From assembly GCA_031316115.1 (NCBI GenBank), contig JALDRC010000002.1, forward strand, positions 310,001-374,000: a DNA stretch of 64,000 nt. The letters run 5' to 3'. The position numbers and the translations under genes were made by a program. This DNA comes from Nitrososphaeraceae archaeon (lineage in GTDB: Archaea > Thermoproteota > Nitrososphaeria > Nitrososphaerales > Nitrososphaeraceae). Shown here in pieces: positions 55,705 to 58,697 of this stretch. Positions within the stretch are counted from its first letter, which is position 1. Every line of letters starts with the position of its first letter. Below the pieces are notes generated by a model, which made no database searches, was not told where the DNA came from, and saw only the letters and a list, made by a program, of their open reading frames with translations.

Positions 55705-55800
55705 TGCTCCGGCCGGGATTTGAACCCGGGATCTGCGACTCGAAAGGCCACAATGCTTGACCGGATTGTGCAGCAATTTTTGCCACTACACCACCGGAGC
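55705..55800 (-). tRNA. tRNA-Glu (anticodon TTC) with a probable 23-nt D-loop intron
   Basis: The minus strand gives acceptor GCTCCGG with CCGGAGC, T-arm CCGGG/CCCGG around TTCAAAT, and anticodon loop CTTTCGA (TTC) on a wobble-rich stem GTGGC/GTCGC. The mature parts sum to 72 nt, but the gene has 95 nt plus discriminator; the extra 23 nt (AAAAATTGCTGCACAA then TCCGGTC) fall in the D-loop after GTGGC. Removing them gives D-stem GTGT/GCAT and an 8-nt loop. CCA is not encoded. The exact splice sites shift by two because of flanking A residues. Confidence 0.8.
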
Positions 55801-55905
55801 GTGCAAAATTTCGTTGTTTCGATAAGTATAAAATCTTTTCTTAAACTAAATCTGAAATCCTACGATAGATCCAAAAGGTTTTTTATTATCTAATCTGAGA
55901 TTTAT

Positions 55906-56756: not shown

Positions 56757-56830
56757 GGGCCTATAGCTTAGCCTGGCAGAGCGACCGGCTCATAACCGGT
56801 AGGTCAAGGGTTCAAACCCCTTTAGGCCCA
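56757..56830 (+). tRNA. tRNA with anticodon CAT (Met elongator or Ile2)
   Basis: Acceptor GGGCCTA with TAGGCCC, D-stem GCTT/GAGC, anticodon stem ACCGG/CCGGT around CTCATAA (CAT), T-arm AAGGG/CCCTT around TTCAAAC, discriminator A and no encoded CCA. The G1-C72 acceptor excludes the archaeal initiator. Ile2 with a modified C34 and elongator Met cannot be separated here. An integrase starts 47 bp downstream, so the 3' half is the probable attachment site. Confidence 0.9.
56795..56830 (+). other. Probable left attachment site (tRNA 3' half)
   Basis: The 3' part of the tRNA gene adjoins the integrase, the usual arrangement for archaeal tyrosine-recombinase elements. No second copy of the segment is found in the window, so the right end must lie beyond 64000 and the crossover cannot be placed. 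Confidence 0.45.
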
Positions 56831-56877: not shown

Positions 56878-58116
56878 ATGCAAATCTCCTCACAGATATC
56901 TGCATATCGAAAATTCGAATATGGTCTTAAATCTCCTGCTACCAAAAGACAATACCCTAAACGATTAGAACATTTTTTAGATTTTTTAGATCTATCAACC
57001 AAAGAAAGTAGTATTGAAGATAAAGTAAACACCCTTTACATAATGATTCAAGATAATGGCAGGGAATGGTTTGAAGACAAACTAATGCAATTTTTTCAGT
57101 TACAGAATGAACGGGTTCAAAACGGAGAAATGTCAATAAATACAATTACCAATTATTACAAACCAATCAAACTCTTCTGTCTTATGAATGGAATTATTGC
57201 TAATTGGGATTTAATATCAAAAGGAATTGTAAAAGGAAATCAAGTTTCTGAGGATAGACCTCCTACAATGCAAGAAATTCAACAATTGGTAAAATATCCC
57301 GATATCAGAGTCGAAATGATTGTTTCAGTAATGATCTCATCAGGTATAAGGTCAGGTTCATGGGATTATTTAAAATGGAAAGATCTAACTCCTATAGACA
57401 AGAATGGCGTGATAGTAGCGGCAAAACTGCGAGCATTCAATACAAAGACAAAAAAATATTATAATACTTTCATAACAGCAGAAGCCTACAATCTTGTTAA
57501 AAATTATATGGATTTTCGTCAATCTCATGGTGAAAAAATAAATGGTGAGGCTTGGCTTGTAAGAGATCTTTGGAGAATAAAGAGCCAGAGATTTGGTAAT
57601 TATTTAGGTCTTGCACAAGCACCCAAACGGTTAACCAGTCATGGAATACGTATGTTAATATCTAATGCATGGAAAGTTCAAGGAATTAGAAATAATTTAG
57701 AAAATGGCCAAACAAGATTTGAATTCAAAACAATGCATGGATTCCGTAAATTTTTCGAGACAGAATGTCAAAAGAAAATGAAATCTCTAACTTTATTTTT
57801 GTTAATGGATCATGATACAGGAATAGTGAAACACTACAATAGACCAAGAGAAGATGAACTCTTAGATGATTATCTAAATGCAGTACACTTGCTTACAGTA
57901 AATGAAGAGAATAGGTTAACAAAACAGGTACAGGAATTAAAGAAAAAAGACGAATATCAAAAATACCTAATTGACAAAAAGATAGATGAAAAGGATAAAG
58001 AGATTGCAGAAATGAAGGAAAAACTGAACAAGTATGAAGAATATGATAAAATAATGAATAATCTTCTGATCAAATTCGAGAAGTGGGAACGAGAACAAAA
58101 AAAACAAAAGGTTTGA
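56878..58116 (+). CDS. Tyrosine recombinase (integrase)
   Basis: The 412-residue archaeal-type integrase has an N-terminal SAM-like DNA-binding part (about 1-120) and the catalytic domain with R in S-S-G-I-R-S-G-S near 160, H-G-F-R-K near 285, the H in M-D-H-D-T-G near 309 and Y in K-H-Y-N-R-P near 319. A coiled-coil tail (L-T-K-Q-V-Q-E-L-K-K-K) follows. It is intact and should cut at a tRNA att site. The TGA stop overlaps the first codons of the integrase remnant downstream. Confidence 0.9.
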   Translation: MQISSQISAYRKFEYGLKSPATKRQYPKRLEHFLDFLDLSTKESSIEDKVNTLYIMIQDNGREWFEDKLMQFFQLQNERVQNGEMSINTITNYYKPIKLFCLMNGIIANWDLISKGIVKGNQVSEDRPPTMQEIQQLVKYPDIRVEMIVSVMISSGIRSGSWDYLKWKDLTPIDKNGVIVAAKLRAFNTKTKKYYNTFITAEAYNLVKNYMDFRQSHGEKINGEAWLVRDLWRIKSQRFGNYLGLAQAPKRLTSHGIRMLISNAWKVQGIRNNLENGQTRFEFKTMHGFRKFFETECQKKMKSLTLFLLMDHDTGIVKHYNRPREDELLDDYLNAVHLLTVNEENRLTKQVQELKKKDEYQKYLIDKKIDEKDKEIAEMKEKLNKYEEYDKIMNNLLIKFEKWEREQKKQKV

Positions 58117-58697
58117 TTTCAAGAATGTTCATGGTTTTAGAAAGTTTCTTTGAAACTGAATGCCAGAAAGTTATGAATCCTGTTAACATTTCTTATCTGA
58201 TTTCACATAATACTGGAATGGTTCAACAATATTACAAACCAACAGAAGATGTTTTATTACAAGATTATCTTAAGGCTATCGATGTACTAACAATTAACGA
58301 AGAATTCAGACTAAATAAACAGGTACAAGAACTTAAGCAAAGAAATGATTATCAAAAATATTTAACTGATAAAAAGATAGACGAGAAAGACGAACAAATC
58401 AGGAAACATAGTTCTAGGTTAGAAGAATATCATGAGATTCAGCAAGAAGACAGAATAATGAGTAAACAACTGATGAGAAATATATCTGATATAAATAAAA
58501 AACTAGAAGAGTTGGAAATTATCGGAAAGGAACAACGAAGACTAAACAAAGAGTATGAATATATCTCATTTGAAGATACCAATGAAGACAACCTAAAAAT
58601 AAATGATGAAAAGTTTGATAAAATGCTTCAAACTCCCAGACAAAGGATTAAAAAAACAGGGAGAACTAGAACAACATATTTTACAAACAACAGATAA
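58112..58697 (+). pseudogene. C-terminal remnant of a second integrase
   Basis: Right after the first integrase stop, the frame F-D-F-K-N-V-H-G-F-R-K-F starts, equal to F-E-F-K-T-M-H-G-F-R-K-F in the first. One extra nt then shifts to the frame F-E-T-E-C-Q-K-V-M, H-N-T-G, Q-Y-Y-K-P and L-N-K-Q-V-Q-E-L-K-Q, followed by a longer coiled-coil and a basic end. The N-terminal half and catalytic Arg are missing. It is a diverged paralogue, not a copy, so an older element at the same tRNA is likely. Confidence 0.75.

Follow-up and report, generated by a model that had tools for sequence, protein, structure and literature searches.

A 20-nt D-loop intron between positions 15 and 16 of the tRNA-Glu(UUC) gene in a Nitrososphaeraceae archaeon and its relatives

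The only tRNA-Glu(UUC) gene found in the genome of a Nitrososphaeraceae archaeon almost certainly carries a 20-nt intron between tRNA positions 15 and 16. We infer that the gene is transcribed, that the intron is recognised through a bulge-helix-bulge (BHB) motif and cut out by the splicing endonuclease EndA, and that the exons are joined by RtcB. The gene, with anticodon TTC, lies on the minus strand at positions 55705-55800 of the window, the 64,000-nt stretch of DNA analysed here, and its D-loop carries extra sequence (Table 1). Read along that strand it consists of GCTCCGGTGGTGTAG, TGGCAAAAATTGCTGCACAA and TCCGGTCAAGCATTGTGGCCTTTCGAGTCGCAGATCCCGGGTTCAAATCCCGGCCGGAGCA. A preliminary description had proposed a non-canonical D-loop intron and an uninterrupted anticodon loop. 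Both proposals hold: the same site, flanking motif and covarying hairpin recur throughout the family, and the TTC anticodon is intact in exon 2, as are the acceptor, anticodon and T arms.

Table 1. Parts of the tRNA-Glu(UUC) gene and its upstream region (window positions).
Feature	Positions	Strand	Remarks
Exon 1, GCTCCGGTGGTGTAG, tRNA positions 1-15	55786-55800	-	boundary set by the intronless alleles G038, G054 and G057
20-nt D-loop intron, TGGCAAAAATTGCTGCACAA, between positions 15 and 16	55766-55785	-	comparison with relatives
Exon 2, positions 16-73, anticodon TTC unbroken	55705-55765	-	
Exon strand GTGT (positions 10-13) of the 4-bp BHB central helix	55788-55791	-	partner 55768-55771
Intron strand GCAC of the BHB central helix	55768-55771	-	
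Inner intron hairpin GGCAA-AAA-TTGCT	55772-55784	-	stem covaries in relatives
TATA-like box, TTTTATAC, 26-33 nt upstream of the gene	55826-55833	-	from sequence; putative function

The extra sequence makes the gene easy to miss. ARAGORN, run in bacterial mode, did not report it, and the Rfam tRNA model gave the unspliced gene 27.5 bits (gathering score 29) with 26 bases of the D region left unmodelled, whereas the genes of three intronless relatives scored 56.1-58 bits. The present gene model thus corrects that of an essential tRNA, one overlooked by a simple finder. A TTTTAT similar to the TATA-like box of the window lies upstream of the tRNA-Glu genes of several relatives. Other tRNA genes of the same genome also bear introns, some of them apparently, as judged by eye, not at 37/38. 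A further candidate for a non-canonical intron is seen in tRNA-Asn (L024, G000:C1:84770-84873), which appears to have about 30 extra nt close to where the D-stem ends.

The ends of the intron were placed by comparison with relatives. Removal of TGGCAAAAATTGCTGCACAA restores a consensus tRNA that equals the natural intronless gene of G038 over positions 1-72, with one difference to the intronless allele of G054 and three to that of G057. All three intronless alleles read GTGTAGTCCGGTCAAGC. Taken alone, the window intron has a T at both junctions, which makes a shift of 1 nt indistinguishable. Among 45 unique introns of relatives the base following GTAG varies (T in 32, A in 11 and G in 2), whereas the T preceding CCGG is invariant, which makes the junction of positions 15 and 16 the most likely site of the intron. 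In every row examined (53 TTC and 13 CTC) the insert ran from GTAG to CAYAR before T, with the 3' end [AG]CA[CT]A[AG]. This intron-end motif was not part of the search pattern in the genome searches that supplied most rows; the 13 CTC rows omit the longer CTC introns of G034 and G058 and the degenerate copies of G105. Insert length among relatives ranges from 19 to 51 nt.

With these ends, the D-stem exon strand pairs with the end of the intron (G-C, U-A, G-C and U-G in the window gene). The result is a 4-bp helix, GUGU/GCAC, between two 3-nt bulges, AG/U and AA/U, that hold the splice sites, a pairing which is in part imposed by exon conservation. Archaeal EndA cuts in bulges of this layout. 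The outer side is irregular, with an asymmetric 2x3 loop between a CCGG/CCGG helix and the central helix; the strict form hBHBh', which is not required of relaxed motifs, is not present, and we regard the structure as a relaxed BHB at most. The preliminary description had been unable to show a perfect BHB by eye; once the ends are corrected, a relaxed BHB becomes evident.

The hairpin inside the intron is supported by its variation. Its letters differ widely among relatives, yet they still pair. Among the unique TTC introns, 41 of 45 have an inner stem of at least three consecutive pairs in strict register, as do 12 of the 13 CTC introns, and the mean for TTC introns was 4.3 against 0.58 in shuffled sequences. 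For covariation, 32 of the 58 unique introns were picked by hand and aligned (27 TTC-type, two of them from family f3, and 5 CTC). In this alignment 94.8% of the cells are paired and each of the five inner pairs varies on both of its sides. Long and near-duplicate introns were left out, and the omitted introns include all five whose inner stem fell below three pairs in strict register, so that the pair counts lean towards the structure. The covariation score was higher than in any of the 500 shuffles and any of the slid controls, kinship of the sequences inflating such scores. The central helix is nearly invariant, two of its four pairs never varying, because its exon side is fixed.

RNAalifold predicted the same BHB core unaided. 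Single-sequence folding with the Vienna package preferred another pairing, both for the local stretch (optimum -14.5 kcal/mol, BHB form -12.4) and for the whole precursor (optimum -38.3 kcal/mol, BHB form -33.6). This optimum was set aside in favour of the comparative structure.

The preliminary description had also pointed to a need for the BHB endonuclease, and the genome (3.16 Mb, 98.8% complete) encodes suitable machinery. Two genes of the EndA family are present. The first matches EndA chains of the crenarchaeal type, 2cv8 being the best match, and keeps the aligned Tyr, His and Lys, which are the catalytic residues of EndA. The second aligns to EndA chains with Pro in place of His, as expected of a structural partner, judging from the alignment. 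By analogy, the two products would form one alpha2-beta2 enzyme of the kind that accepts relaxed BHBs, an assembly suggested by two reviews (PMC4090602, PMC4033280), and on this footing we count an EndA of the accepting type as present. The genome also holds an RtcB-type ligase gene. Only about 200 bp separate the gene for the second EndA-type subunit from tRNA-Glu(CTC), and the two are on opposite strands (L062 and L011, G000:C12:288572-289114).

The search for a second, intronless tRNA-Glu(TTC) gene, which the preliminary description had called for, found no other UUC gene in this 98.8%-complete genome. The sole other tRNA-Glu found is a single intronless CTC copy. In seven ORFs of the window GAA codons outnumber GAG codons (81 against 21), so the cell needs tRNA-Glu(UUC), the codon reading of which rests on wobble rules. 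Together, the lack of another UUC gene, the EndA and RtcB genes and the frequency of GAA make it very probable that the window gene encodes a functional, spliced tRNA.

In the precursor, the D-stem 5' strand GUGU would pair with the intron GCAC instead of its D-stem partner, forming the 4-bp helix between the bulges AG/U and AA/U with the intron hairpin as a cap. EndA would cleave in both bulges and RtcB would ligate the exons, after which the D-arm could fold normally and the tRNA read GAA. Following excision of the 20 nt, the mature tRNA would read GTAGTCCGG.

Other readings of the insert were weighed against this one. The preliminary description had placed a 23-nt intron after GTGGC (55781-55759), with ends uncertain by up to 2 nt, which would leave the D-loop as AGTGGCAA. 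That excision also yields a D-loop with GG and, by eye, a D-stem that can be closed, but the relatives disagree with it: none of the three intronless alleles in the family has that junction, no BHB is seen at its ends, and the excised piece would enclose the conserved TCCGG. We consider it very improbable. The intron is instead the 20 nt at 55785-55766, after GTGTAG and before TCCGG, so that the earlier ends were off by 4 nt on the 5' side and 7 nt on the 3' side. That the mature tRNA keeps the insert, with a D-arm hairpin enlarged by it, is still harder to credit. The insert does fold as a stable hairpin, but its length varies widely among relatives, three of which lack it, the bulges of the BHB are kept at both of its ends, and a retained insert would tie up the 5' strand of the D-stem.

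The gene might also be a degenerate pseudogene, or something left behind by a mobile element, and give no functional tRNA. This has some precedent, as relatives do have degenerate copies and attachment-site halves of tRNA-Glu genes, and an integrase-like ORF beside the tRNA-Met of the window shows that elements insert nearby. This explanation also seems very unlikely for what is the sole UUC gene found: every stem outside the insert is intact, the exons match those of relatives, and its 3' half has no second copy in the genome.

An intron at 15/16 of tRNA-Glu(UUC) appears to be the rule in the family (f1). Of its 70 genomes, 51 carry the TTC insert at the same place and three (G038, G054 and G057) are intronless. 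In one genome (G015) the contig stops within the insert, one genome has only degenerate copies (G105), and no TTC gene was found in the remaining 14, most of which are incomplete. Within a 400-genome sample of the order, the intron pattern occurred in 51 genomes, namely 49 of 70 in f1 and 2 of 2 in f3, and in none of the other 328; intronless tRNA-Glu genes were found in many other families among the matches listed. A phylum-wide sample of 398 genomes gave seven matches, five of them in f1 and two (G419 and G441) in families f33 and f37, which look like renewed use of the same site. In public records the pattern was found in 39 stretches, all titled, as deposited, Nitrososphaeria or Thaumarchaeota, with Nitrososphaera, Nitrosocosmicus and Nitrosopolaris included. 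The tRNA-Glu(CTC) gene has an intron at the same site in 12 genomes, 11 of genus g2 and G002; in the latter, g1-like and g2-like genes occur together, perhaps through contamination.

The history of the intron was considered on a tree of five ribosomal proteins covering 30 of the 38 genomes searched, G054 not among them. Backbone support inside the family is weak (40-65), and no number of gains is therefore claimed. In genus g12, G038 and G057 are intronless and G033, the sister of G038 (support 99), has a 44-nt intron, a pattern that points to two or more losses, or else to one loss with a regain. The tree joins the intronless f9 to f1, and the intronless f2 to the intron-bearing f3, so that the introns of f1 and f3 may or may not have a common origin. 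Identical exons with and without the intron in one archaeal family offer a natural comparison for tRNA intron gain and loss. It has also crossed our minds, as a tentative and rather doubtful idea, that 15/16 of tRNA-Glu is a favoured and functionally kept intron site. The sole UUC gene would then have kept its intron in almost the entire family because splicing governs D-arm folding or tRNA-Glu supply, and a separate intron would have been placed at this site in one genus, in its tRNA-Glu(CUC), and, as it appears, in two distant families of the phylum.

As archaeal introns go, the one in tRNA-Glu(UUC) is ordinary and of a kind already known. It shares enzyme and motif logic with the canonical intron at 37/38, but lies in the D-loop and leaves the anticodon loop intact. 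According to the tRNAscan-SE 2.0 paper, Thaumarchaeota genomes hold 107 noncanonical introns and have a separate intron model (PMC8450103). Like the archaeal introns described there, the present one is short, lies outside 37/38 and has a BHB core; no passage considered names the 15/16 site of tRNA-Glu, which may already stand in the tables of individual introns. D-arm introns are likewise described for tRNA genes of Caldiarchaeum and Crenarchaeota (PMC3293823, PMC3978253); one of them, at 24/25, is proposed to have arrived together with a mobile element (PMC3293823). Those share the D-arm of archaeal tRNA genes with ours, which differs in its position at 15/16 of tRNA-Glu and in being common to most of a family and not recently gained. 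A D-loop intron in Nitrososphaeraceae tRNA-Glu is not named in the literature found, which was covered in part and without supplements or GtRNAdb, and we do not claim that it is unpublished. What is notable is the family-wide conservation, the tRNA-Glu(CUC) counterpart at the same site, and a position outside the attachment core of integrating elements.

This position is relevant to the proposal that introns protect tRNA genes from integrating elements. Lone 3' halves of tRNA-Glu(TTC) that begin at the anticodon loop or close to it adjoin unrelated DNA in G029, G033, G052, G058 (two) and G105, and look like attachment remnants of integrated elements; a further one in G002 stops at a contig end and cannot be judged. 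The attachment core would begin downstream of the D-loop intron, which means that the intron does not interrupt it. As four of these genomes (G029, G033, G052 and G058) bear the intron, it seems to give no protection against integration. No lone 3' half was found in the genome of the window. Insertions into intron-containing thaumarchaeal tRNA genes are already reported by Krupovic et al. 2019 (PMC6563490).

Rearranged copies of tRNA-Glu(CTC) were also observed. An inverted partial copy with D-arm, D-loop intron and anticodon loop occurs in three genomes (G024:C1:2792825-2792880; L088/L109 of G029; L089/L110 of G002), about 300-400 bp from the normal gene or its 3' half, and its intron matches that of the host gene. 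Copies in G029 (L106) and G002 (L107) have the D-loop intron, an insert of about 29 nt in the anticodon stem and a replaced 3' acceptor strand, and were probably disrupted by an integrated element.

Within the window, a tyrosine-recombinase-like ORF (PF00589, below cut-off; 56878-58116) directly follows tRNA-Met (56757-56830). About 16.5 kb further downstream, the same strand has a near-exact 22-bp copy of the 3' end of tRNA-Met with one mismatch (G000:C12:383295-383316, equivalent to window position 73295 and beyond the window), and an integrated element adjoining tRNA-Met probably extends past the window end. The ORF at 58083-58697 resembles the C-terminal part of the integrase-like ORF, with FETECQK and NKQVQELK in common, as if it were a duplicated or broken copy of it.
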